Positions 2,455 through 58,896 of a DNA stretch of 64,000 nucleotides are shown here, in pieces. Under the pieces are notes generated by a model, which did no database searches, was not told the origin of the DNA, and saw only the letters and a list, made by a program, of their open reading frames with translations. Where the stretch lies: IMG/VR virus record IMGVR_UViG_3300022752_000059, positions 1 through 64,000 of that record; one strand, 5' to 3'. The translations under genes were made by a program, and so were the position numbers. The stretch's first letter is position 1; each line of letters starts with the position of its first letter. The DNA is from a virus.

Positions 2455-2810
2455 TGAGTGACCAAGAGGTTGAGGTGGGGGCGGAAGCCCCCACCGACCT
2501 TGCGGAGCAGTACGAACTACCGTCGTTGCACTTCGTTGACAACGGCTGGTACGAGAAGGCTCAATGCAAGGGACAGACGGACAAGTTCCTGTTCAAGAGG
2601 TACCGAGGAATCAACGGTCGTGCCCTCAGCGAACGGGTGCAGGAAGCCAAACTAATCTGTGTTGGATGCCCAGTGCAGATGCGGTGTCTTCGCTTCGCAG
2701 TGAAGAATCACATCAAGTTTGGTATTTGGGGCGGTGTAGATATTGAGACACTGCACAACGTCAAACACAAGCGTTCAGTGCTTGCGAAGTTACGAGAATT
2801 GCTCGAGTAG
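2454..2810 (+). CDS. WhiB-family iron-sulfur transcription regulator
   Basis: The 118-aa product has the WhiB signature: four cysteines at 38, 69, 72 and 78 (C-x30-C-x2-C-x5-C) that would bind a [4Fe-4S] cluster, then the G-[IVM]-W-G-G turn at 90-94 and a basic C-terminal helix (KHKRSVLAK) suited to DNA contact. WhiB proteins act with the host primary sigma factor. A phage WhiB from mycobacteriophage TM4 is known to interfere with host WhiB2 and cell division, so a host-takeover role is plausible. It is last in the rightward operon and its end overlaps the convergent glycosyltransferase gene by 21 nt. Confidence 0.93.
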   Translation: MSDQEVEVGAEAPTDLAEQYELPSLHFVDNGWYEKAQCKGQTDKFLFKRYRGINGRALSERVQEAKLICVGCPVQMRCLRFAVKNHIKFGIWGGVDIETLHNVKHKRSVLAKLRELLE

Positions 2811-4870: not shown

Positions 4871-5296
4871 TTACTGGTCGTTAGGCGGAATCAACGTAAA
4901 CTTTAACTTTTCCAAGTCGGTCAATTCATCGATCATTTTAGGAATCTTCTCAATGTTTGTTTTTTCAATCTTCTGAGCGTGCGCTTTAAAGCATTCTGGG
5001 CATCGGCAACCTTGTCGATAACGCACCCACGTACCGTGTGGACGTAAGGCATTCTTCTTTGGGGTTGTCGTATTGAGCACCGTGCGTTCTTGCGGTGTGA
5101 GTCCACCCCACATGCCGTGCTTTTCTTCACGCCCGTTTTCTAAGCACTTCCTCCATACGGGACATTGTCGGCAAACTAATCGTGCAATTGAGTAATACGA
5201 TTCGGGGTTGTCCGCTTCGAGTGGTGGAAACCAGAGGTCGATGTGCCGTTCTTTGCAAAGGGCGTCGTGCCTCCAGTTTCCACCAGTCGATTTCAA
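4871..5296 (-). CDS. WhiB-family regulator with Cys-containing extension
   Basis: Residues 1-75 are a full WhiB domain: cysteines at 14, 42, 45 and 51 for a [4Fe-4S] cluster and the GMWGG turn at 61-65 followed by LTPQER. Unlike the first WhiB, it continues with an extension of about 65 residues containing HGTWVRYRQGCRCPECFKAH (87-106), three more cysteines that resemble a small phage/actinobacterial motif of unknown role and may form a second metal site. A charged helical tail ends the 141-aa protein. It overlaps the previous gene's stop by 4 nt. Confidence 0.9.
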   Translation of the reverse strand: MKSTGGNWRHDALCKERHIDLWFPPLEADNPESYYSIARLVCRQCPVWRKCLENGREEKHGMWGGLTPQERTVLNTTTPKKNALRPHGTWVRYRQGCRCPECFKAHAQKIEKTNIEKIPKMIDELTDLEKLKFTLIPPNDQ

Positions 5297-6971: not shown

Positions 6972-8423
6972 TCAACTATCTTCCGACAAATCCAAAATCT
7001 CGGTGTAAAGGGCGTTGGTCTGCTGAGCGTTCAACCCGCCACCCTCCAGTGCTCTGGCTTGGTCTCCTGCACGGGCTCCAAAAATACGGCTGAGGACGCC
7101 ACTCGAGGCTCTGGCTTCCACCTCAAGGCGAAGAGTGTCACGACTGTCATTAATGTTCTTGAAACGCTCAATGAGCGAGAACAGCCTGTCCATTTCGGCT
7201 GACAGGACGGGGTCAAGTCCCTGACCTTCCAGTTCCTCAGCGAACCGAGCAAACATGACACGGCTCACTTGCATCTCGACCATGGCTCGAAGGGCGGCTT
7301 GCAACTGGTCTTTGGTTCGAATCTCTACGGGCATCTTGAAGGCACATTCTGAATGTTCCTTGAATGCAGGGCATCGGGTGCTCAAATAGCAATTATCGCA
7401 CTGACGCAAAAGTACGCCTGTGTTGCGAATGACTGGAACGACCTCAGGGTCGATTTCTATTGATTCTCCTTGATCATTTTCAACTTGTGTACCCATCGAA
7501 GTGATGTGCTCAATGCCCATAACTGGTAGCAATAAGCGCTCGCTTTCGTGCCGCTTCTCGGGCACGTTGATACCAATAGTTGACCCCCCAGAAACCGCTA
7601 AATCCCCACTTGGTGTTTCACCCTGATTAATTGCTAATTGACCATCTGCATCGAGTGAGAACTCGTGCTCGTCGCCGTCAGTTGTGGGGTCATAGCCCTT
7701 GTACATATCAGTCATAAACGTGTGGCTCTCCCATTGTTGCCATGAGCGAATAGCGAGCAATCCCACTGCACTGACCTCGTCGTTCTCAATCTCATCTGGA
7801 TTTAGCCCGAGGCGAATGATGTCGGCTCGGTGACGCTTGCGGGCGCTTTCTTTTTGCTGGGCAGGGTAGCGACGGAGCCCATGCCCGTCCCAGACTTGTG
7901 TTTCTCCGTACCTAATGGCACTCGTCCACGAGCCCACGACGACGGTATCCCATGGGATACGTTCGATTAGATCGGTCTTGGACGTGATGCCCACCAGTTT
8001 GGCTCCCCATCTCTGGGCGATGCCATTGATGCGATTCTGATTTCTGGCATCAATGGCTTTGTCGCTAACGGCGGCTCTACCGTATTTCTGGCAGAGGAAG
8101 GCGAGGCGCTCAAGGTCTTGGTCGTCGTTCCAGATGGGGACGTACTTCTCTCCGAGCCACGTTCCGTCGTATTCAGGACGTCCGATGACCATGGTCAGAT
8201 TGTCGGCATTGTCCCGAAGGAACATGTCGTAACGTGCCGTGTCCTCGTCGTTCTCCGAGGTGTAGACAATGATTTCCCCGCTGGCGAACATCGCTGGCAG
8301 GTCTAGGGCTTTCCTCTTTGGTAGTGGGAAGTGCGTCAGGTTGATGGCGAAACGCTGTACGCCAGCATTGACCAACATGTTCCTGTAGGAACCCTTTTCC
8401 GCACCACCAAAGAAGACACGCAC
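6972..8423 (-). CDS. Large unknown protein with C-terminal Cys cluster
   Basis: A 483-aa protein I do not recognise with certainty. Residues 1-250 alternate short strands and helices (opening MRVFFGGAEKGSYRN, later WDTVVVGSWTSAI and VWDGHGLRRY), compatible with an alpha/beta barrel. Residues about 270-320 look like an acidic, Gly-rich linker. The C-terminal part contains a Cys cluster (CDNC-x6-C-x8-C, about 340-360) and a long helical tail. Barrel plus Cys-cluster proteins in phages include tRNA-guanine-transglycosylase-like enzymes, but I see no decisive active-site motif. Confidence 0.75.
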   Translation of the reverse strand: MRVFFGGAEKGSYRNMLVNAGVQRFAINLTHFPLPKRKALDLPAMFASGEIIVYTSENDEDTARYDMFLRDNADNLTMVIGRPEYDGTWLGEKYVPIWNDDQDLERLAFLCQKYGRAAVSDKAIDARNQNRINGIAQRWGAKLVGITSKTDLIERIPWDTVVVGSWTSAIRYGETQVWDGHGLRRYPAQQKESARKRHRADIIRLGLNPDEIENDEVSAVGLLAIRSWQQWESHTFMTDMYKGYDPTTDGDEHEFSLDADGQLAINQGETPSGDLAVSGGSTIGINVPEKRHESERLLLPVMGIEHITSMGTQVENDQGESIEIDPEVVPVIRNTGVLLRQCDNCYLSTRCPAFKEHSECAFKMPVEIRTKDQLQAALRAMVEMQVSRVMFARFAEELEGQGLDPVLSAEMDRLFSLIERFKNINDSRDTLRLEVEARASSGVLSRIFGARAGDQARALEGGGLNAQQTNALYTEILDLSEDS

Positions 8424-41435: not shown

Positions 41436-43013
41436 TTAGATTGCACTGGCGGTGCCGCCAGCGAACTGGGTGAGTTTGATGATTACGAATTCGGCTGGGT
41501 ATTGCAGTGCAACACCAACCTCAATATTGACGTATCCGTCTTCGATGGACGCTTGGGTATTGTTTGTGTTGTCACAGACGATGTAGAAAGCCGACGCAGG
41601 CGAGGAGCCCTTGAGGTTTCCTTTCGCCCAGAAGTCAGTCAGGGTGCTGGTCAACGACACCTTGATTCGATCCCACAGCCGCTCATCGTTGGGTTCAAAA
41701 ACCGCAAACTCCGTCTGATTCTTCAAGACCACTCGCAAGTACGAGAGCGTACGGCGGATGGTGATGTAGCGGTCTGGACGGTTCTTCGAGAGCGTTCGTG
41801 CACCGTTGATGATGGTGCCGCCGCCAGGAATCGTACGCAAGCAGTTGACGTTGTTGGTCTTGTACAACTCACCCTGATCGGCATCGCTCAAAGTAGCAAC
41901 CAGACCGAACACGTTTTGCAGGTCGAGGTCGTAACCAGCGGGCGCCTTTCCGACACCACGGATGCTTTCAGAACGAACGAATGCACCAGCAATCGCACCA
42001 CCTGCGTGGGTGTCACGAATAGCCGTTGGACCACTCTTGGCTGGGTCGTACATCTTCAATGCGGGGAAGTACACCGCACCGTATGAACCATAGGTGGAAG
42101 CGCTGTAGTTTGCAACGGCGGTCTGCACTTGGTTCTTGGTGAGTGTGGTCAAATCCGAATCAATGATGACGAATGCGTCTCCACGATTTGCGGCGTACAG
42201 AAGTGCGTTGTTGATGCGGGTAGTCGCCGTCTGACCAACGAGGTTGATCAACAGCGGACCAGGAACCGAATCAAGGTTTGAAACTGCGGTTGCCCATTCC
42301 GTATCAGCGCTAACTGCGCTCGGGTTAGTTGCATCAGAACCACTGGCAAGAGTGAATGACGTGACATAGTCGCCAACCGATACACCAGATACGGACACGG
42401 TTGCGCCGCTTCCAATTGTTGCTGGGGTACCGTTCACTTTCACATAAGCGGAATAGAGATCGAGAACGCTCTTGAAGTAACGGCTTGACGTCGAATCAAA
42501 CGACAGTTCCTGCCATGATTCAACTTCGGTGGCAACACCATTCTTCGTCAGAGTTACCGACAGAGCAAACAACGTTGAGGCTTGCAACTTGGGAGCGGTG
42601 GTAACGTCAGCCAGCGTATTTGGGTCGAACGTCAAGGTCACCGAGAGGTCATTGCCCCATGCGCCCTTGGAAGCAGCATCAAGTTGGAACAACGTTGACG
42701 AACCAGATGCGCCCGTCACCGTTCCAGTGAAGGTGAACGTAGAAGCAGCAGCGGTGGTGTCGATAACACGTGACACGTAGACGTCACGACCACCATTTGC
42801 AAAGAAGTGATAGACGGCGTAACCAAGATCGTAACCGCTGGTGATGTCACCAAACTTGGTCTTGTACTCGTTCCACGAAGTCAAAAGAACGGGCGTTGCT
42901 GGACCACGCTCGGCTGTGCCAACAAATGCCGCAGCAGTGACTGCCGTGCGGTTTGCGACGTTGCTAGTGAACGGGGCTTCCTGAACGTATACCCCTGGGC
43001 GATCGTATGCCAT
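41436..43013 (-). CDS. Tail sheath protein
   Basis: The 525-aa protein opens MAYDRPGVYVQEAPF, the usual sheath start, and contains ATPVLLTSWNEYKTKFG, HFFANGGRDVYVSRV, and C-terminal domains with LRTIPGGGTIINGARTLS and RYITIRRTLSYL that define contractile sheath proteins. It contracts to drive the tube through the envelope. This is the clearest marker of a myovirus-type tail in the window. Confidence 0.97.
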   Translation of the reverse strand: MAYDRPGVYVQEAPFTSNVANRTAVTAAAFVGTAERGPATPVLLTSWNEYKTKFGDITSGYDLGYAVYHFFANGGRDVYVSRVIDTTAAASTFTFTGTVTGASGSSTLFQLDAASKGAWGNDLSVTLTFDPNTLADVTTAPKLQASTLFALSVTLTKNGVATEVESWQELSFDSTSSRYFKSVLDLYSAYVKVNGTPATIGSGATVSVSGVSVGDYVTSFTLASGSDATNPSAVSADTEWATAVSNLDSVPGPLLINLVGQTATTRINNALLYAANRGDAFVIIDSDLTTLTKNQVQTAVANYSASTYGSYGAVYFPALKMYDPAKSGPTAIRDTHAGGAIAGAFVRSESIRGVGKAPAGYDLDLQNVFGLVATLSDADQGELYKTNNVNCLRTIPGGGTIINGARTLSKNRPDRYITIRRTLSYLRVVLKNQTEFAVFEPNDERLWDRIKVSLTSTLTDFWAKGNLKGSSPASAFYIVCDNTNNTQASIEDGYVNIEVGVALQYPAEFVIIKLTQFAGGTASAI

Positions 43014-48631: not shown

Positions 48632-49717
48632 TCAGGCGAGAGCGCCACCCTTGGTGTTGATAAGCACTCGGGACTCATGGGTGATGACACCGAAGCCCCA
48701 GATTGCGTACCAAGCAAGACCGTGCTCACGACCGAAGTCGATGACGCCACCGTCACGGAGTTCGACGGGCAGAGCGATTGCCTGACCGAATGCGTTGTCT
48801 CCGATCATCATGGCGCTGTACGAGTCAGAGGTCGGGTCCTGGAAACCGTTCGACGACGGGTTGACGTCGACGACATCCGTGGAAGCCTGACCCTTGAGCA
48901 CCTGCGTGGTCTCGATGAACACGACGTCGTAGAGACGACCGATTTCACCGAGCATGAAGTTGCCAGGAGCGGCGTACTTGGTGACTTCGATGAACTCAGG
49001 CCAGTCACGCAGCGCACGGCTCTGCGACGGGTGCACGAAGCACACGTACGTGTCGCCAAGGCGAGGAATGTTCTGACCAGCGAGCACTTCGACGGCATCC
49101 TTAACGGTTGCAGGCGAGAAGTAGCCAGGGGCCGAAGCCGAACCAGCGGCTGCGTACTCGTACGGAGCAAGCGAACCACGGCTTGCGGCTGCAGTGCGAC
49201 CGAACACAACGCTCGGAGCAACAGCGGCACCGCCGCCGAACGGAACGCCAGCGCTGTACAGCGTGTTGCGTGCCTGGATGTCCATCGACTGCGCCATGTG
49301 GCGACCGAGGAGACGGGAAGCCGATGCCATGACGTCATCGAATGCTGCGTTGAGCAACAGTTCGGTGACGGCAACTGCCTTACCCTGTTCCTTCACGGTG
49401 ATCTGAATCTGCGAGGCGGACAGAGCGCTCGGCTCAAGTCGCACACCTTCAGTCAGTTCGGCGCCAACGGCGTCGTCCGTCGAAAGGTTGTTGTAGCGCA
49501 TGAAGTTAACAGTGAGACCAGGCATGACGCCGAGTTCGGTCTTCTTCACTGCGAACTGCTCAAAGCGCAGAACGGGCATTGCCTGGAACAAGATTTCCTT
49601 GGACCAGATTGTCTGAATTGCGGGTGACAGGGTGGTGTCGGACGAGTAACCCGTCGTCGTGATTGACGCAAGGTTTGCTCCCGTTACCGCACCGCCTGCT
49701 GGGGCTGGAAATGCCAT
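48632..49717 (-). CDS. Major capsid protein, HK97-like
   Basis: The 361-aa protein has the usual layout: N-terminal arm, QTIWSKEILFQAMPVLRFEQFA, EQGKAVAVTELLLNAAFDDVMASASRLLGRH, then late FVHPSQSRALRDW and GRLYDVVFIETTQV, with a GGVIDFGREHGLAWYAIWGF near the end. These are features of the N4-gp56-type/HK97-fold capsid family. No obvious N-terminal delta domain is visible. It follows the scaffold gene, and high-level expression is suggested by the strong downstream hairpin. Confidence 0.93.
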   Translation of the reverse strand: MAFPAPAGGAVTGANLASITTTGYSSDTTLSPAIQTIWSKEILFQAMPVLRFEQFAVKKTELGVMPGLTVNFMRYNNLSTDDAVGAELTEGVRLEPSALSASQIQITVKEQGKAVAVTELLLNAAFDDVMASASRLLGRHMAQSMDIQARNTLYSAGVPFGGGAAVAPSVVFGRTAAASRGSLAPYEYAAAGSASAPGYFSPATVKDAVEVLAGQNIPRLGDTYVCFVHPSQSRALRDWPEFIEVTKYAAPGNFMLGEIGRLYDVVFIETTQVLKGQASTDVVDVNPSSNGFQDPTSDSYSAMMIGDNAFGQAIALPVELRDGGVIDFGREHGLAWYAIWGFGVITHESRVLINTKGGALA

Positions 49718-49755: not shown

Positions 49756-50550
49756 TTAGAACCGACCACGATTAGGTCGGGCATTCAGGAGCCGTTCACG
49801 CATCTTCGCATACTGGTCCATCGTCATGTTGCGAATGTCATCCGCAGACAACGTCTGGTATTCCGTTTGAGTTTCCGTAGGCCCAACGGGAGGTGCCGTT
49901 ACCGACACTCCCCTCAAACGACCTTGCTGTTGCTGAGTCGCTTGCTGGATTGATTCCAGAATAGCAGAACTTCGTTCACGAAGTACGGCAATTGAGTTCT
50001 CAATCTCCTCCTCCGTGTTTCCTGACACGAGGTCCAGGAGTTCGGGAACGATGTTCTCCGTCTCCTCAGACAGTCGTCGCTGGCGGAACGAAGTCAGTTC
50101 CTGGAGACGGCGCTCTTTTTCAAGGATTGCCGCCTGTGCTTGGCGCTGTTCCTCGATCTCTTGGAAGCGTCGGCTGTACTCCGAGTCGAGGTCCTTCAAT
50201 TTGAGGTCGAATTCCTCTTCACGCTTGCGGAGCAAGTCTTTGGCGCTGAGTTCCTCTTCCTCTCGCTTCTTAAGAGCCTCGGCTTCAAGACGGGCACGCT
50301 CTTCCGCTTCCTTACGGGCGGTTTCACGTTCCTGAGTCAGGAGTGCCATTTGCTCTTCCATGGTCTTGACACGGCTGTCTGCTTCTTCAAGACGCTTGTA
50401 CAGTTTGTCTTTTTCCTGCTTTCGGATGCCTTCAACTTCGTCCTCGGTGAAGACCTTCTTCTTCTGTCCGCTGACGTTTGCTGCTTCATCCTTCAGGGCT
50501 TCAGTCGCCTCTGCGGGAATGACAATTTCATCGGTATTACCTTTTGGCAT
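49756..50550 (-). CDS. Scaffolding protein
   Basis: The 264-aa protein is a long charged coiled coil (about 35-165, Glu/Lys/Arg-rich) with an acidic N-terminus and a C-terminal basic helix (DQYAKMRERLLNARPNR) that may bind capsid. Position between portal and capsid gives the role. It opens MPKGNTDE, echoing the M-[AP]-[RK]-G motif of the small proteins on the left, though perhaps by chance. Confidence 0.88.
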   Translation of the reverse strand: MPKGNTDEIVIPAEATEALKDEAANVSGQKKKVFTEDEVEGIRKQEKDKLYKRLEEADSRVKTMEEQMALLTQERETARKEAEERARLEAEALKKREEEELSAKDLLRKREEEFDLKLKDLDSEYSRRFQEIEEQRQAQAAILEKERRLQELTSFRQRRLSEETENIVPELLDLVSGNTEEEIENSIAVLRERSSAILESIQQATQQQQGRLRGVSVTAPPVGPTETQTEYQTLSADDIRNMTMDQYAKMRERLLNARPNRGRF

Positions 50551-50598: not shown

Positions 50599-52290
50599 TT
50601 ATTTGTCTTCGTCTGGGTTGCGACGTTGGGCGAACCTTGCGCCGTATGCCCGTGATACTAGTTTGTTTACGAGTTGCCCTTCGATGGGGTTAACCCCAGC
50701 ACCAGGCAACGGGGCTGCTGACCCCGCATTGGTTACATTAGCACCTTCTGAGGGTGCGGGTGCGGGAGCCATACCACCGTCAGGGCTGGGAGCCATGCCA
50801 GTGGCAAGCATGATTGCCATCTGAATCTGGGCACGCATCATGTCGAGCGCACCCTGATCGAGGGCATCATCCTGCAGTTCTTCGAAGATTTCAAGCATCT
50901 TCTCGTTCGGGAATTCCTCGCCCAAAGCCTCAAGCGCACCACGCTTGGACTCCAGACCCAAGGACATCTTTGCCTGCACTTCGTTGAGTTTGATAAGGAC
51001 GTCAACGGGCAACGGCTCGGGCCAGTGGATGGAAGTCTTGTAGGTCAGCGGGTCGGCTGGGTCAAGTTGCGGCAACTGGTCGGGCTCAGGCTCGGCAGCA
51101 ATTGCTGGGTTGTACGTCAACCATTCAGGGGTAAAGATTGCCGCCGTGCGAATAATGATTTCGTTCAAACGCTCCAAACCGACGGTGAAGTGGGTCTTCT
51201 TCATATTGAAACGGTTCATCATTGGCTGGTACTGGATAGCCAAAGCAACGCCGCTGGTGTTAGATACGGGTTGGAACTGACCTAGTGCGGTCTCGGGAAC
51301 ACCAGTGATCTCATGCATGGTGCGCTTCAAAAACTGAATGTATTCAAGCGCTCCCGACATTTCTCCACGAGATTCAAGGTTGAATACTTGTGCATCCTTT
51401 GGCAGACCAGCCCACACCTTCTTTGGTCCACGCTCCAACTGACTTGCCTTAGCGCCAGTGATGATCGTGACAGGGGCGGCATGGTAGTTAATGATGTCAG
51501 AAACTTCGACCATCTTTTCGTTTAATTCACGGTTCAACGGGATAATGTCCCAGATGTCCGACTGACCCCACGGCGAGGACGAAATAGACGTATTGGTGAT
51601 GTGCACCACTGGAACGGTTCCAAGAACGTTGTCGTACTGGTCGATTAATTCGTCATTGATGAATTGCTGCACCATCTCATCGGTCATGATTTCGGTGAAC
51701 GTGTATACCTGACGGGTGCCTTCGGGAGACGTTCCCCAGAAGCGATACTTCAATTTAAATCGGATGATTCTTGAACGATCGTGCGGATGATATTCGGGAA
51801 AACAATGCGCAGGGTTCAAAGGAATAATACGAATCTTGCCGTTGTGTGGAACCCCAGCCGTATCCACATATGGTTCTTCAAACGCAATCTTGACAAAACA
51901 GTCTCCCGTGACGGATGCCAACTGGCCCATCTCCCACAAGACCTTGTGTTTGTTGTTGTCTTGGTCCCAGACCTTTTGCAGAAGGTGCGGAATTATTGCC
52001 TTGTTTTGTTCTGGAACTCGGAACTGCACGCCTTTACCAAAACAAAAATTGGTGATGTAGTCCGACATTGTGCGGACATAATTCATGTAGAACTGGGACT
52101 CGCCCATCTCTCGGCGGTACGACCAGTGATGCCCTAGGTACCACGCCCAAGCCGATGCATATCTATTCAGCCGTGGACCATGAACTTCAAACTCTTCGTC
52201 TGCCAGTTCGACCAAGCCAAGCGGCGAAATAGCGACTGTGAGGTCGCTTGCGGCTGCTCTATATGATGGCGACCAGAAGTCAATAGCCAT
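50599..52290 (-). CDS. Portal protein
   Basis: The 563-aa protein opens MAIDFWSPSYRAAA and has a core with WYLGHHWSYRR, FCFGKGVQFRVP, GDCFVKIAFEEP, and later SDIINYHAAPVTIITGAK, GMFQPVSNTSGVALAI-type helix-turns, typical of portals of about this size; the C-terminus is Pro/Ala-rich. It forms the ring through which DNA enters. Starts the head block next to scaffold and capsid; the 119-nt gap upstream separates it from the lone rightward gene. Confidence 0.93.
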   Translation of the reverse strand: MAIDFWSPSYRAAASDLTVAISPLGLVELADEEFEVHGPRLNRYASAWAWYLGHHWSYRREMGESQFYMNYVRTMSDYITNFCFGKGVQFRVPEQNKAIIPHLLQKVWDQDNNKHKVLWEMGQLASVTGDCFVKIAFEEPYVDTAGVPHNGKIRIIPLNPAHCFPEYHPHDRSRIIRFKLKYRFWGTSPEGTRQVYTFTEIMTDEMVQQFINDELIDQYDNVLGTVPVVHITNTSISSSPWGQSDIWDIIPLNRELNEKMVEVSDIINYHAAPVTIITGAKASQLERGPKKVWAGLPKDAQVFNLESRGEMSGALEYIQFLKRTMHEITGVPETALGQFQPVSNTSGVALAIQYQPMMNRFNMKKTHFTVGLERLNEIIIRTAAIFTPEWLTYNPAIAAEPEPDQLPQLDPADPLTYKTSIHWPEPLPVDVLIKLNEVQAKMSLGLESKRGALEALGEEFPNEKMLEIFEELQDDALDQGALDMMRAQIQMAIMLATGMAPSPDGGMAPAPAPSEGANVTNAGSAAPLPGAGVNPIEGQLVNKLVSRAYGARFAQRRNPDEDK

Positions 52291-52610: not shown

Positions 52611-53221
52611 TAAACGATCGACTGCTGTCCCTTGGCGGGCTTCCGTTTTTTAGGACCGCCAATCTTGGACGGGTCTACAACCTCAGCAAAGTACGGCTCG
52701 CCAATGGGACCTGTTCCACTTAAGAAACTCTCCGCTGTTCCAGGAACCAGTTCAAGGCCAGGGGCAGGGCGAGTGGGATGGAGCGGATTGATTTCTGTTT
52801 TGTTTGACGCAATGTCATAGATTGCTTCTTGCTGATTTCTGTACGCATTTCTGCGAGCCTGTCTGCGACCAAATTCTGTCGGATTAAATCTACGAGACAC
52901 GTCCAATACCAGTTCTTTTTGTGCCGCTGGTGTTTGGGTTTCATCGATTCGTGTTGAAACCCACCCGCCCAAGTTACTTCCAACCTTTGTCAGGGCTATT
53001 AGAGTATCAGGGCTGTTTATGTAGTCAGCAAACTGCTTGTGACCAACGGAGTTTAGAAGGTGCCGTTGCTCGTGACCTTTTATCGAAACCATAACCCCAG
53101 AATCCAGGACGTTGCCCGTTCGTGGGTTGATTGTAAACCCACCTTCTTCTTTTGCTAAAGAGATAGCCCGATCGGGGTCAATGTTGGTGAGAATCTTCTT
53201 AGGAGAAAGATCGCTCGACAT
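52607..53221 (-). CDS. Hypothetical protein in head module, 204 aa
   Basis: Charged, probably partly disordered, with KGHEQRHLLNSVGHKQFADYI (a His-rich stretch) and a basic NPTEFGRRQARRNAYRNQQ helix. The C-terminus is Lys/Gln-rich (KKRKPAKGQQS). Position upstream of the portal and overlapping the lone rightward gene. Possibly a minor virion or ejected protein. Not recognised. Confidence 0.65.
   Translation of the reverse strand: MSSDLSPKKILTNIDPDRAISLAKEEGGFTINPRTGNVLDSGVMVSIKGHEQRHLLNSVGHKQFADYINSPDTLIALTKVGSNLGGWVSTRIDETQTPAAQKELVLDVSRRFNPTEFGRRQARRNAYRNQQEAIYDIASNKTEINPLHPTRPAPGLELVPGTAESFLSGTGPIGEPYFAEVVDPSKIGGPKKRKPAKGQQSIVY
52612..52651 (+). terminator. Possible terminator after the lone rightward gene
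   Basis: AAACG (52612-52616) pairs with CGTTT (52644-52648) around an inner CCC/GGG stem, followed by further Ts (run to 52651). Weak stem but good T-run; it lies just after the stop of the rightward gene and inside the opposing gene's 3' end. Confidence 0.35.
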
Positions 53222-53481
53222 TATTTCTTGGCAGTGCCCTTCTTGGCTTCTGCCTTCTTTGGCTCAGCCTTGACAGCAGTCTCAGCCAACTTGAGGAAGA
53301 GGGCAGTGTTCTCGTCGCCAACCTTGGTTGACACTATGGACAGACCGTAGGCAACGACTGGGACGAGGAGGGCTACGGCTTCTTCACCAAGGCCCAACTT
53401 GGCGGCGGCGTACGTGACGATACCGACTGCGGCGCCTTTGAGGGCGGCATCTTTATGGGCAACCTTGAGGTTCTTCTTCAT
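53221..53481 (-). CDS. Small membrane protein with Lys-rich tail
   Basis: Start set at an ATG with an AAGGAGT site. The 86-aa product has a hydrophobic stretch (about 13-51, AALKGAAVGIVTYAAAKLG and LLVPVVAYGLSIV, two short helices) and a C-terminal KAEPKKAEAKKGTAKK tail. The pattern fits a holin or a membrane-active phage protein; the neighbours are head genes, so the role is open. Confidence 0.62.
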   Translation of the reverse strand: MKKNLKVAHKDAALKGAAVGIVTYAAAKLGLGEEAVALLVPVVAYGLSIVSTKVGDENTALFLKLAETAVKAEPKKAEAKKGTAKK

Positions 53482-53508
53482 AATTGACTCCTTGAGTAGG
53501 TAGACCAA

Positions 53509-54132
53509 TTATACCGTTTTACGGATTCTGCCGTTTTTGCCTTGGATGTGGGTGTGGTACGGGGCGCCAGTATGGGGATCAAACTTTGCAGCAACTGCCA
53601 TGGTTTTGAGTGCGTTGGCTTTTGCTTGCTGAATAGTTTTCTGCTTGTTGCGGGTAAGTATTTGCATTGCCCCAAGAGCGTAGGGCGCCCCAGAACCAAT
53701 GGCATATATTCCGTTGGCATCCGACGACCAGGCGTAGTCTTCGTCCACCACGTAAATGACCCCGTTCACTGCGACGATGATTGTCGAGTTTTGTTCGGCT
53801 ATGTGCTCCTTATCCTCACGCTCTGGTGTGGCGTAACCCTGAGCCTCAAAGCACTCTCTCAGTGCAGGGACGAATTTCATCGTGAAGAACTGGTCAAGTT
53901 TCTTTCCAACGATGTTTGGTGGAGGCGCTGGTGGTTGGAATGCATGGTGGAGAATGTTGATTGCCCGCACATCCCCAGCGGCACCAAGTAAGTACTTACC
54001 ATTGACCGCAATCTTTCCAGAACCTTCACGAAGTGTGGAGATTTGGGAACCATCTGTAGACATTGAAGAAATACGAGAGTCAGCACAGATTACGGCAAAG
54101 CCGTCACCTTGAACTCCAACAATCGTTGTCAC
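53509..54132 (-). CDS. HslV/proteasome-beta-like Ntn hydrolase
   Basis: The GTG start two bases after the previous stop gives Met-Thr-Thr-Ile-Val, so removal of the initiator Met would expose Thr1, the nucleophile of HslV and proteasome beta subunits. Asp17 of the family is kept (GFAVICADSR). The middle has KYLLGAAGD like the HslV AGFAG stretch, and the C-terminal half GIYAIGSGAPYALGAM matches IAIGSGGPYA. The residue aligned to the catalytic Lys appears to be Arg34. At 207 aa it is longer than HslV. It lies between metallophosphoesterase and portal genes. No ClpX/HslU-like ATPase is in the window. Confidence 0.85.
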   Translation of the reverse strand: MTTIVGVQGDGFAVICADSRISSMSTDGSQISTLREGSGKIAVNGKYLLGAAGDVRAINILHHAFQPPAPPPNIVGKKLDQFFTMKFVPALRECFEAQGYATPEREDKEHIAEQNSTIIVAVNGVIYVVDEDYAWSSDANGIYAIGSGAPYALGAMQILTRNKQKTIQQAKANALKTMAVAAKFDPHTGAPYHTHIQGKNGRIRKTV

Positions 54133-54134
54133 GA

Positions 54135-55289
54135 CTATTCCGACTTGTATTCCTTGCCGTTGTGCATCGCCCATCCGTTGTAGATCGGAATGACGTTGTA
54201 CGTAAAACGGTGCTGTCCGTTGTCTTCGTACGCCACTATCCCAAGACCCTGTTGCCAATTCTCGTGTCGTGTGAGTGGTCTTCCGTCGAGGTCGACACCA
54301 CCCTTAGTAGATGGAATGGCGCCGTCAATACGAGCCAAGCAACCAGGAGAAGCAGCCATAATGGTACGAGGACCATCGAAATCTTCCCGAGTTTTATATG
54401 CGGTCTCAATGCGGTGAATGTGTCCATAGATGACGCTCGTTTTCTCGTTGTTCAAATAGACGTGTGCTGTGGAACCAGAAGACTTAACACGGTCGCCGTG
54501 AATGACACGCAACTTCTCATTAATCCAGAAGTCTGAGGCGGGGTACCCAGGTCGGTACTCAACATCAAACTCGTCCATACGGCAGAGGTACGGGACGCTG
54601 AGGACGGGCCATGAGTCTGGAGTATTCCCTTTGCGCAAGCCATAAGCGGCGGCGGCGTTGGTCAACAAGTACTTTGGCATTCGCTCTTCGTGATTGCCTG
54701 CCAACCAAACGATCTTTGCAAACGGTGCAGCAGCACGAATCTGGGCACAGAACGTAGTTGCCCTGTCTATTGCCGCCTGCGTTGTTCGCTGATAAGCGGG
54801 CGTGGTCAGATACTTGCCCATTTCTGGAAGGTCAAGGTTGTCTCCTACGCAGACGATTCGTTCTGGCTGCACGTCTTTGATGAGGGCTATTGCAATTTGA
54901 ATTGCCTTCTCATCATGAGTCGGTTCAAGTTGCCCATCACGCCCCGTGTAGTAGCCAATCTGCATGTCGGGAACCACAATGTCAGTCTTGAAATGCACTG
55001 CTTTTTTGGGTTTGACAGTCGGGGCAGGAAGTTTGATGGCAGGTCCGACATGCACCACAGGCCATTCGGGACCGCTTTCCCACGACGGGGCAAACTGGAT
55101 GGCGGCAAGGTCGTGAATTTGGGCTTCGCCATCATCGTCTTTGGTCAACGATTGATACAAGGACACACGCTTGATGTCACCAATTTGCTCAATGTCAATG
55201 TTTTTCTTTTCGAGCAGTTCCACAAGTTGACCAAGCAGTTTGGTCTTGTCTTGTTTCGGGGTGGACAGGGCGTCAGTCAGATTGCTCAC
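54135..55289 (-). CDS. Metallophosphoesterase
   Basis: The 384-aa protein has the five motif blocks of calcineurin-like phosphoesterases: VPDMQIG with Asp108, GDNLD (149-153), GNHEER (198-203), a His in RVIHGD (about 263), and GHIHR (289-293). The N-terminal 95 residues contain a helical DNA-binding-like or dimerisation part. Typical relatives hydrolyse phosphodiesters or phosphomonoesters; in a packaging region it may act on DNA ends. GTG start overlapping the HTH gene by 17 nt. Confidence 0.9.
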   Translation of the reverse strand: MSNLTDALSTPKQDKTKLLGQLVELLEKKNIDIEQIGDIKRVSLYQSLTKDDDGEAQIHDLAAIQFAPSWESGPEWPVVHVGPAIKLPAPTVKPKKAVHFKTDIVVPDMQIGYYTGRDGQLEPTHDEKAIQIAIALIKDVQPERIVCVGDNLDLPEMGKYLTTPAYQRTTQAAIDRATTFCAQIRAAAPFAKIVWLAGNHEERMPKYLLTNAAAAYGLRKGNTPDSWPVLSVPYLCRMDEFDVEYRPGYPASDFWINEKLRVIHGDRVKSSGSTAHVYLNNEKTSVIYGHIHRIETAYKTREDFDGPRTIMAASPGCLARIDGAIPSTKGGVDLDGRPLTRHENWQQGLGIVAYEDNGQHRFTYNVIPIYNGWAMHNGKEYKSE

Positions 55290-55566
55290 AGCAGCATTCT
55301 CCGTTTACGTGTCGTTGGATGGTACTTATACTCACGCTGTAGCCGTGTTGTTTCAGGACCTTAGTAAGCCATGAAGCGCTGTAGACCTTGCCCTTACCCA
55401 TACCGTTGTCTTTGCGCACCATTTCCACGGCACGGTCGAGGGCTTTTTGCTCCTCTTCGGACATCCCGTCCTTGACACGGGTGAACTTACACACCAATGA
55501 AGTGTTCTGTTCCCTCGGCAAAAGAAGGGCTTGGGCAAGGCTGGATGCTTGTTCTTGATCGTTCAC
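55273..55566 (-). CDS. HTH protein, candidate small terminase-like
   Basis: The 97-aa protein has a C-terminal helix-turn-helix: YSASWLTKVLKQHGYSVSISTIQRHVNG (about 62-89), with a Cys-rich ending (CCCEQ). It is encoded three structural genes from the large terminase, where small terminase subunits lie, but sequence alone does not separate it from a general regulator. Confidence 0.65.
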   Translation of the reverse strand: MNDQEQASSLAQALLLPREQNTSLVCKFTRVKDGMSEEEQKALDRAVEMVRKDNGMGKGKVYSASWLTKVLKQHGYSVSISTIQRHVNGECCCEQSD

Positions 55567-55905: not shown

Positions 55906-56673
55906 CTAAACCTTTGGACGCCCTCGACGAATCATGGACGTTGACGGCACCCCACGAGAAGGCGCATTTGCTTTCCAAGAAACCCAAGAAATTGCTTGGG
56001 CGTCAGCAGGACGAAGACCTTTGCGCTGACCAACGGTGCGCACGGCATCCGCAATTGTGTTGTAACGTCCAAAAGAGCCCAAACCACGATCAACAGTTTT
56101 CCATGGTTGTTTTAGTCCACCTGCAAGATCGGCTTGGTGTGTATCAACCACAACAATATTTTCATTTTCTGGATTAGTAATCAAGTCAGCGAAATTACGA
56201 ACTTTCAAACCTTCTGGAAACACATCACGATAGTGTTCCCCACCCATGATTCTGGTTGCCCATTTAAGTTGATGTTTTGTTGCTTTGGACCCCTGCATTG
56301 GTTCGCCGTGTTTCATGAAATGACGTGCTTCAGCAATATTTTTATCCCATTTGGTGCCATACGAACTAAGTGCCGCAGTAAGACCCGCACCTCGCTCTAT
56401 GTCCGAAGGACTGATTTCTTGAGCCATTTGATTGGCTTGTTTATACCAAGATAAACCTTCCTCACGTTGTTCTGGGGTAGAGATATCAATTGCTCTGGAA
56501 ATGTTGCCAAGCATTTTTGTAAACTGAGCCCCAGACATTGCTCGGCCTTGACCAACGGTAGATGGTGCTGATGCTTGTCGAATTGGAAGCAGGTTTGAGG
56601 TCGGCTCGACACGCTCAACAAATTGGAATCCAGCCTGCTCCAAACGTTTTGGATAGTTTCGTGGATTAGGCAT
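55906..56673 (-). CDS. Hypothetical virion-region protein, 255 aa
   Basis: Start set at MPNPRNYPKRLEQ, overlapping the upstream stop by 8 nt; a longer frame to 56754 overlaps more. Middle parts are helical (AGFQFVERVEP, MLGNISRAIDISTPEQREEGLSWYK), the C-terminus basic. Contains KATKHQLKWATRIMGGEHYRD. No catalytic motif recognised. Could be a portal-associated or ejected protein. Confidence 0.65.
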   Translation of the reverse strand: MPNPRNYPKRLEQAGFQFVERVEPTSNLLPIRQASAPSTVGQGRAMSGAQFTKMLGNISRAIDISTPEQREEGLSWYKQANQMAQEISPSDIERGAGLTAALSSYGTKWDKNIAEARHFMKHGEPMQGSKATKHQLKWATRIMGGEHYRDVFPEGLKVRNFADLITNPENENIVVVDTHQADLAGGLKQPWKTVDRGLGSFGRYNTIADAVRTVGQRKGLRPADAQAISWVSWKANAPSRGVPSTSMIRRGRPKV

Positions 56674-56863
56674 GGCTGCACCCGCAGTTAATGCCTTGTT
56701 CAAACTCCTTGCGCCGACGTCGGTATAGGTTGAGCGCCCGAGACGCACCCGCATACACGGGAGCGATCGGGAGCCCAGACGACGTTGTGGTCAGCGAGGA
56801 ATCGCCCTCAGCCGAGCCCTCAGCCGACGTGGGGCTCCCTGCGGGAGAGCCCACTGTCTGCAT
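56666..56863 (-). CDS. Small Ser/Gly-rich protein, 65 aa
   Basis: Follows the previous stop directly (TAA-ATG). Residues 1-35 are Ser/Gly/Thr-rich and likely disordered; a basic helix (RALNLYRRRRKEFEQG) and CGC end the protein. Unknown function. Confidence 0.62.
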   Translation of the reverse strand: MQTVGSPAGSPTSAEGSAEGDSSLTTTSSGLPIAPVYAGASRALNLYRRRRKEFEQGINCGCSHA

Positions 56864-57315: not shown

Positions 57316-58896
57316 TTAGCGACTGAAGAATGGCGATTCCGCCACCTGTACCTGCGGCATGGTGTCGTGAATGGTCATGGCGCAGGCGATAGCCAGAGAG
57401 TCTGGATAGTCGTCAAAAGCGCCTTTTTCTTCAGGTGCTGCAGCAAGCATATACGGTCCACGGTAGGTTTTCTCGAGGTCCGACATTTGCTGGTTAAACC
57501 GTTTCCATGCCCGTGTACGACGTGCCTTTGAGTGACCAGGAATGATTAATTGGTCTCTCTGGATGAGTTCCGTAAGGTGCACCCATCGCTCATGCTGGGC
57601 TTTCTGGTCGGAACTCATGGCGACCACTTCGATGTCGGGGAGGAGAATTTGCATGCGCTCCGCCACGGCACCGCCAACACCCTGAGAGTCAATACCAATT
57701 CTTAGGATTTCGTAATTACGGAGGAAGTCAATAATTTCAAAGTACTGCTGCTCCCATTCGACGTTGTTGATTTCCAACCAGTTGAGGATGCGATGCTCGT
57801 AGAAACCAAACGGGTCTGGGTGGTCCCAGTCAACCCATACGACGGTCACCACGGTGGAGTCGTTTGATCGGGCGACGTCAATACCTACTACTACCTGGGT
57901 GCGCCACCATTGTTTCACGAGCGGCATGGACGGGTCGTACAAGCGCTCCATTCGTTCCTCGGTAACGAACATTCCTTTCTCAAGAATCCATCTGTTGCAA
58001 TATGACATCTGGAATTCGTCGGAGTCCTCGCCAATGCGAACCTTTTCTTTGGCGATGAACTTGGCATAGTTCTCGTTGTACTTGGCGGCAGTTCTCCAGT
58101 CGTATTCAAAGTGGACTGCACGCTGTCGTTTACCGCCGTTTACCATTCGTCGTTTGTTGAACTGAATCATCTTGTAGAAGTACGACTTGTTTTTGGTCGC
58201 CGTACCAGTCAGGCAAATACTCCCGTTGTTGAACGCCAGCATCGGTTTGATTGATTTGGCGATGACGAACTCGTCTGCTTCTTGTGCCTCGTCAATGAGG
58301 ACAAAATGGTAAGTCTTAGATTCGATCTTTGCCTTGGGGTTGCAAGTCTGCATTCGGCAAAGAGACCCAGACTTCTTCAAGGTGATAATTCGTCCTTTTC
58401 CACGGGCTCCACCTGAGGCTGTTTTATCGTCGATTTCAGGATCCAAAAGAAAGTCAACTGCATGGTCGCTGGTCAGTTTGTTGACGATGCGGCTGAACAC
58501 CGTATCCGCTTGGTCTTCGACTGGGGCGAATACTCCGCACCAAAAACCCTTCTCAAACTTGGACAACCACGTTGGGTAAATCTTCGACAGTTTGGGCAGG
58601 ATGACCATCATGGATGCGAGGACGTTGGACACGACCTCTGACTTACCGCTCTGTCGTGTGGCTACCACGGTCATTTCTTCGCCGTCTCCCAGAACGATTG
58701 ATTCGATCATTCGGTAAGCGATAGGAATTTGGTATGGGAACAATTCCACGTCGCAGAACTGCTCAGTGAACACGATGAGGCGCTTGACCAGTTCGTCGAC
58801 GAATTCCGCCGACGCCTCGTCAAGTTCAGGCGGCAGGCTCTCTTCTAGCGCCTGCTCGTCAGTTAATTCTTCGTCTAGTTCGTCCGTTACTGGCAC
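57316..58896 (-). CDS. Large terminase subunit
   Basis: The 526-aa protein (GTG start) has an ATPase with Walker A RQSGKS (81-86) and Walker B IDEAQ (201-205), then an RNase H-like nuclease: Asp340 in VVGIDVA, Asp403 in IGIDSQG and Asp499 in FDDYPDS. It cuts and pumps phage DNA into heads. Acidic N-terminus (residues 1-30) precedes the ATPase. It heads the late head operon, just downstream of the lysis-region genes. Confidence 0.96.
   Translation of the reverse strand: MPVTDELDEELTDEQALEESLPPELDEASAEFVDELVKRLIVFTEQFCDVELFPYQIPIAYRMIESIVLGDGEEMTVVATRQSGKSEVVSNVLASMMVILPKLSKIYPTWLSKFEKGFWCGVFAPVEDQADTVFSRIVNKLTSDHAVDFLLDPEIDDKTASGGARGKGRIITLKKSGSLCRMQTCNPKAKIESKTYHFVLIDEAQEADEFVIAKSIKPMLAFNNGSICLTGTATKNKSYFYKMIQFNKRRMVNGGKRQRAVHFEYDWRTAAKYNENYAKFIAKEKVRIGEDSDEFQMSYCNRWILEKGMFVTEERMERLYDPSMPLVKQWWRTQVVVGIDVARSNDSTVVTVVWVDWDHPDPFGFYEHRILNWLEINNVEWEQQYFEIIDFLRNYEILRIGIDSQGVGGAVAERMQILLPDIEVVAMSSDQKAQHERWVHLTELIQRDQLIIPGHSKARRTRAWKRFNQQMSDLEKTYRGPYMLAAAPEEKGAFDDYPDSLAIACAMTIHDTMPQVQVAESPFFSR

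Follow-up and report, generated by a model that had tools for sequence, protein, structure and literature searches.

The gene examined here, termed PROT, would encode a catalytically intact threonine peptidase resembling HslV and the beta-proteobacterial proteasome homologue (BPH). In the reading that we favor with moderate confidence, actinobacterial phages carry it as accessory cargo rather than for the maturation of their capsids.

The PROT Gene and the Head Module

Of a viral contig 66.6 kb long, 64 kb were analyzed (the window); the record may itself be a fragment. Its relevant features are listed in Table 1. An earlier note on this DNA had proposed a phage-encoded HslV/proteasome-like protease between the genes for the terminase and the portal protein. 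The open reading frame was confirmed as a real gene in that position, with all three genes on one strand; this is the minus strand, which the note had not specified.

Table 1. Features of the window relevant to PROT (positions in the window).
Feature	Position	Strand	Remarks
WhiB-family gene	2547-2741	+	
WhiB-family gene	5078-5275	-	
Queuine tRNA-ribosyltransferase-like protein	6972-8423	-	phrog_887, 3e-32; possibly modified-guanine DNA or tRNA
Tail sheath	41436-43013		Contractile-tailed phage
N4-gp56-family major capsid protein	48632-49717	-	TIGR04387, 1e-38
Candidate scaffold, coiled-coil	49756-50550	-	phrog_172, 1e-4, and position; separate from the capsid protein
SPP1-type portal protein	50599-52290	-	PF05133, 5e-31
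g53221, small protein	53221-53508	-	Next gene past PROT; hydrophobic segment and Lys/Ala-rich tail
PROT, proteasome/HslV-like N-terminal-nucleophile (Ntn) threonine peptidase	53509-54132	-	207 aa
MPE, calcineurin-like metallophosphoesterase	54135-55289	-	2 nt upstream of PROT; PHROG 20266, 2e-81
Small helix-turn-helix-like (HTH) protein	55273-55566	-	Upstream of MPE; weak HTH matches; HTH-MPE-PROT cassette
DUF7178 protein	55906-56754	-	5e-37; between terminase and HTH-MPE-PROT; some relatives only
Terminase large subunit	57316-58896	-	Profile match

The start codon of PROT is a GTG at 54132, 2 nt past the MPE stop, and the N-terminus reads M/V-T-T-I-V, in line with the Met-Thr-Thr-Ile-Val start noted before; the relatives all begin with M-T-T-I. 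No propeptide was present in PROT or its relatives, and removal of the Met would expose Thr1. A longer version of 249 aa starting from a TTG at 54258 was rejected, since the relatives begin at MTTI and the extra stretch overlaps MPE.

In most close relatives the gene order was terminase, then HTH, MPE, PROT, g53221, portal, scaffold and capsid protein, and g53221 occurred with or without PROT among the relatives compared. The capsid protein shared 59% identity with its counterpart in Streptomyces phage BRock. Its family match begins at residues 21-28, so that no long N-terminal region is visible that a protease could remove. The host of the phage is probably actinobacterial, as suggested by the two WhiB-family genes (in a control search of 14 genomes, WhiB was matched in Corynebacterium only) and by the MPE relatives found in phages of Clavibacter, Microbacterium and Mycobacterium.

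PROT Belongs to the Proteasome/HslV Family

In profile searches, PROT matched the Pfam Proteasome family (PF00227) at 6e-6, with 26.4 bits against a curated cut-off of 22.4, and PHROG 1040 ("peptidase HslV family") at 3.4e-27 over residues 1-200. An AlphaFold (AF2) model from 33 aligned sequences reached a pLDDT of 86 and a pTM of 0.84. The best Foldseek match of this model in the PDB was BPH (5ovs; E 4.5e-12, TM 0.71/0.79), followed by many HslV and proteasome chains, the HslV chains at about 1e-10. More than 1,000 PDB matches were obtained at E ≤ 0.001, and the top 50 were all proteasome, HslV or BPH chains. BPH and HslV were also the nearest solved structures by sequence, with a BPH profile match at 4e-6. 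According to the model, PROT is a peptidase of the proteasome/HslV fold, a sandwich with an N-terminal nucleophile. The family proposed in the earlier note was thus upheld by PF00227, PHROG 1040 and the AF2 model alike, as was the Ntn fold by the comparison with HslV and proteasome structures, and the family was already known in phages.

In equivalog scores, PROT fell well short of both HslV proper and the 20S proteasome beta subunit. The HslV equivalog models (TIGR03692 and NF003964) gave 26-28 bits vs the 137-158 required, and the archaeal and bacterial 20S beta equivalogs gave 20.5 vs 224 bits (TIGR03634) and 14.8 vs 192 bits (TIGR03690). PROT shares with HslV (ClpQ) the MTTIV start, the GSGxPYA loop and the Thr1/Asp17/Lys33 set, but it has 207 residues vs about 175, and the HslU partner gene is absent from its record. 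With BPH it has in common an acidic loop past helix 2, whereas the identity is only 23%, and the host and the context differ.

Proteasome homologues of Group I, named PPH, AAH and CPH, were described in phages in 2021 without any known function (Fuchs, Alva and Lupas, 2021; PMC8665760), and a search of the literature found no functional study of any phage HslV-like protein. Like these proteins, PROT is a phage proteasome homologue that lacks a propeptide. It falls outside the PPH definition (about 140 residues and no helix H2), since it has 207 residues and both H1 and H2 are present (predicted helices 55-64 and 76-97). Within PHROG 1040, homologues with the same annotation occur in the phages Moorella MTATph1, Geobacillus E3, Tunturi_5 and SHEFM2K, and PROT is some 30-40 residues longer than most members from cultured phages. 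Its own subfamily is distinct and belongs to freshwater actinophages, with 50% identity to the homologue of DSL-LC01 and at most about 36% to those of other cultured phages. PROT is a further member, perhaps a new subfamily, of the phage family already described. The range of the family now includes many phages from freshwater whose WhiB genes mark them as actinobacterial; AAH, to which this subfamily may or may not belong, was not found in Actinobacteria-specific phages by the 2021 survey (PMC8665760).

The Active Site Is Conserved and Under Purifying Selection

The equivalents of the catalytic residues Thr1, Asp17 and Lys33 in PROT are T2, D18 and K40 (Met = 1). The GSG loop corresponds to G146-S147-G148, and D185, T188 and G189 to the proteasome Asp166/Ser169 region. 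Two further observations of the earlier note were correct: Asp17 is kept, as D18, and the IGSGAPYA segment is found as AIGSGAPYA at residues ~144-152. In the alignment, the three catalytic equivalents were kept in 42/42 distinct full-length sequences, and the GSG/GTG loop and the Asp-x-x-Thr/Ser-Gly motif were retained among 42 distinct relatives. The suggestion that the catalytic Lys had become Arg was mistaken. K40, in "GSGKIAV", was unchanged in all 33 aligned relatives and in an 18-sequence distant alignment, and the Arg that occurs in "TLREGSGK" does not correspond to it. A short insertion before the strand shifts the Lys off count 33, which probably gave rise to the Arg reading.

A scan of viral contigs yielded 80 PROT relatives with 54-73% identity. 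In close pairs, dN was 0.02-0.11 vs a dS of 0.6-1.8 (dN/dS of about 0.02-0.14), and this codon comparison showed PROT to be under strong purifying selection. Together with the invariant active-site residues, it indicates that PROT is maintained and very probably catalytically active.

PROT Is Gained and Lost Among Phages With Near-Identical Heads

To the 80 contigs found by their capsid protein, BRock was added, and 46 carried the portal gene and enough upstream DNA to be informative. PROT was present in 26/46 of these and absent from 20/46. These proportions are not population frequencies, since the contigs retrieved through the capsid protein had been ranked by how closely they resembled the window, and those of the PROT sample had been chosen for PROT itself. 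The contigs are fragments, and each absence holds for the contig concerned. A whole-contig search of 16 PROT-less contigs with the PROT family profile gave no match.

In nearly all of the PROT-less phages, MPE was followed directly by a protein of ~93-126 aa and then by g53221 or the portal gene (for example L104:7108-7449, L107:6732-7025 and L114:6493-6789). The consensus of this small protein is WLDAFDG..GW....P..IGW...IP.GM..SI. No informative family or fold was obtained for it (best PDB match at E 0.04), its AF2 model being a small, mostly-beta fold. PROT and the small protein were never found in one locus: 79 loci had PROT only and 17, with MPE and portal, had the small protein only, while the contig L164 and BRock lacked both. 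In a portal and capsid tree of 59 phages, at least three exchanges between PROT and the small protein were located on strongly supported branches.

These exchanges form a clean natural experiment, in which near-identical heads exist with and without PROT and its slot is taken by a small gene. L106, with the small protein, and L064, with PROT, shared 94% identity in MPE, 88% in the portal protein, 77% in the scaffold and 86% in the capsid protein. Another pair discordant for PROT, L152 and L160, shared 91% in the portal protein, 84% in the scaffold and 92% in the capsid protein. Overall, PROT-less phages reached 75-92% capsid-protein identity to PROT-bearing ones. The comparison of gene content showed PROT to be dispensable for the head module. 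Such gain and loss among near-identical heads is not expected of a protease required for capsid maturation, and the proposal that PROT represents a new class of enzyme for capsid maturation is not supported, given the absence of PROT from phages whose portal, scaffold and capsid proteins are nearly the same.

The exchangeable slot also bears on an anti-defense role, in which PROT would degrade an immune or toxin component of the host, with the small protein as its equivalent against another host system. The replacement of two unrelated genes by each other at least three times resembles the behavior of variable counter-defense genes, and between the same phages PROT evolves faster (identity of about 66%) than the capsid and portal proteins (about 80-85%). 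Against this, PROT is under the strong purifying selection described above, and PADLOC gave no match for PROT and three neighbors, a weak point because PADLOC holds defense models only. An anti-defense role as such appears rather unlikely.

Classical Prohead Proteases Coexist With PROT in Sister Phages

No classical prohead protease had been visible in the earlier reading, and this was borne out for the described families: Pfam models for S78, S77 (T4 gp21), S49 and S14/ClpP gave no match in the 66.6 kb record. These families were also absent from nine PROT-bearing contigs of the same head-module lineage and from nine of the 16 PROT-less ones, so this head type seems to need no classical prohead protease. 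The heads of SPP1, P22 and T7 assemble with a separate scaffold and no protease.

In other phages the two kinds of enzyme occurred together, and the idea that PROT and classical prohead proteases exclude each other had to be abandoned. A Peptidase_S78 domain scored above the Pfam cut-off in five contigs of larger phages with a PROT of the same subfamily (L053, L056, L068, L070 and L076; PROT identity 57-65%), at a distance of 56-95 kb from PROT. DSL-LC01 gave a weak S78 match (23 bits vs 21), and the jumbo phage SHEFM2K carried both a distant PROT homologue and a T4 gp21-type S77 protease (1e-21). The annotation of Microbacterium phage BarnCat lists a "protease" of the PROT family together with a "capsid maturation protease", the latter unconfirmed by the four Pfam models. 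As a separate observation, the S78 domains of the five contigs (G025:29469-29906, G026:63979-64419, G029:78861-79322, G032:61126-61551 and G027:129700-130137) lay inside very long open frames of 900-4000 aa, as would be expected if the protease were part of a giant structural polyprotein.

These data make it highly improbable that PROT acts inside the prohead, cleaving the scaffold or the capsid protein in place of an S78, S49 or T4 gp21-type enzyme. Its position between terminase and portal in its own lineage and the lack of S78, S77, S49 and S14 in the record would suit such a role. However, close relatives (75-92% capsid identity) do without PROT, those tested having no other classical protease either, and S78 lies tens of kb from PROT in sister phages. 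Furthermore, no N-terminal domain for removal is visible in the capsid protein, the scaffold is a separate gene as in the protease-free SPP1, P22 and T7, and elsewhere PROT sits among regulatory and metabolic genes, often between MPE and WhiB.

PROT Is Found Among Regulatory and Metabolic Genes in Other Phages

The sister lineage of larger phages had lysis-type genes, HTH, MPE, a small ORF, PROT and WhiB, in this order. A WhiB-type protein was found in 13/17 sister loci, no more than 2 kb downstream in 12 of them, and MPE or HTH genes lay upstream in 11-12. Homologues in cultured phages had as neighbors WhiB (DSL-LC01), ThyX/MazG (Pumpernickel), RNA ligase/polynucleotide kinase (RpAliso), DNA ligase (Tunturi_5), thymidylate synthase/DHFR (E3) and PhoH (J2-1 and Vibrio 1.101.O). 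Among the loci examined, PROT was directly beside the portal gene only in the lineage of the window, where it always adjoins it; a late function connected with the virion would be compatible with this constant position as well.

A single-sequence scan of genome contigs revealed no bacterial relatives of PROT, and an alignment-based scan gave one phage-like contig, L176, binned in a Gammaproteobacteria MAG. This contig carries HTH-MPE-PROT-WhiB (L176:4941-8085) and is probably a mis-binned actinophage.

The company of HTH and MPE, joined in the sister lineage by WhiB, points to a takeover or regulatory cassette. Its location next to WhiB in the larger phages, which encode an S78 protease themselves, taken together with its dispensability, argues against a structural role and toward host-side substrates. 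Between the two options offered by the earlier note, a capsid protease or a takeover factor acting on host proteins, the latter appears to be the better one.

A different chemistry was also weighed, namely that PROT is an Ntn hydrolase with amidase or ligase activity, perhaps acting with MPE on a small molecule. The Ntn fold is functionally versatile (PMC8665760), connectase being a ligase, and MPE is the immediate operon neighbor of PROT in two lineages. Nevertheless, the full proteasome set is kept (Thr1, Asp17, Lys33, GSG/GTG, Asp166 and Ser/Thr169), and MPE and PROT are often apart: MPE also occurs where PROT is missing, and no MPE was detected beside PROT in DSL-LC01, L046, L070, L079, L080 and L084. 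Such a non-protease function is considered very unlikely.

Proposed Role of PROT

As an accessory peptidase, PROT would depend on host methionine aminopeptidase for removal of the start Met and exposure of Thr1, and its subunits may form a double ring like the tetradecameric one of BPH. Access of substrates could be limited by the acidic "pore loop" past helix 2 instead of an HslU unfoldase, and the particle would act in the cytoplasm of the infected host, cleaving unfolded or specific host or phage proteins. Independence from an unfoldase is suggested because of the BPH-type acidic loop, because no HslU/ClpX-type AAA_2 protein was found in the 66.6 kb record or in nine other PROT-bearing contigs of the head-module lineage, and because HslV is unmarked for Actinobacteria in Table 1 of the 2021 survey (PMC8665760).

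The last two points weigh differently on the alternative that PROT replaces HslV by docking on a host AAA+ unfoldase and redirecting ATP-dependent degradation. Its HslV-like fold and GSGxPYA loop are compatible with this, and since the record has no phage unfoldase, the partner would be host-derived. However, the lack of a mark for HslV in Actinobacteria and the probable actinobacterial host make a host HslU partner unlikely, and PROT gave 26 bits vs the HslV equivalog cut-off of 158. This alternative is regarded as improbable.

Within the accessory-peptidase reading, we put forward only tentatively that PROT forms a stand-alone, unfoldase-independent proteasome-like particle serving as a takeover or counter-defense weapon, to which the ~100-aa protein would be the equivalent in the exchangeable slot.

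HslV genes without HslU have also been reported for the Salmonella jumbo phage pSal-SNUABM-04 (PMC7823757). One 202 kb relative in our set, the L079 contig, encodes a ClpX/HslU-type AAA_2 protein (1e-53; G028:47154-47702) about 53 kb from PROT, which might partner it as an unfoldase there.
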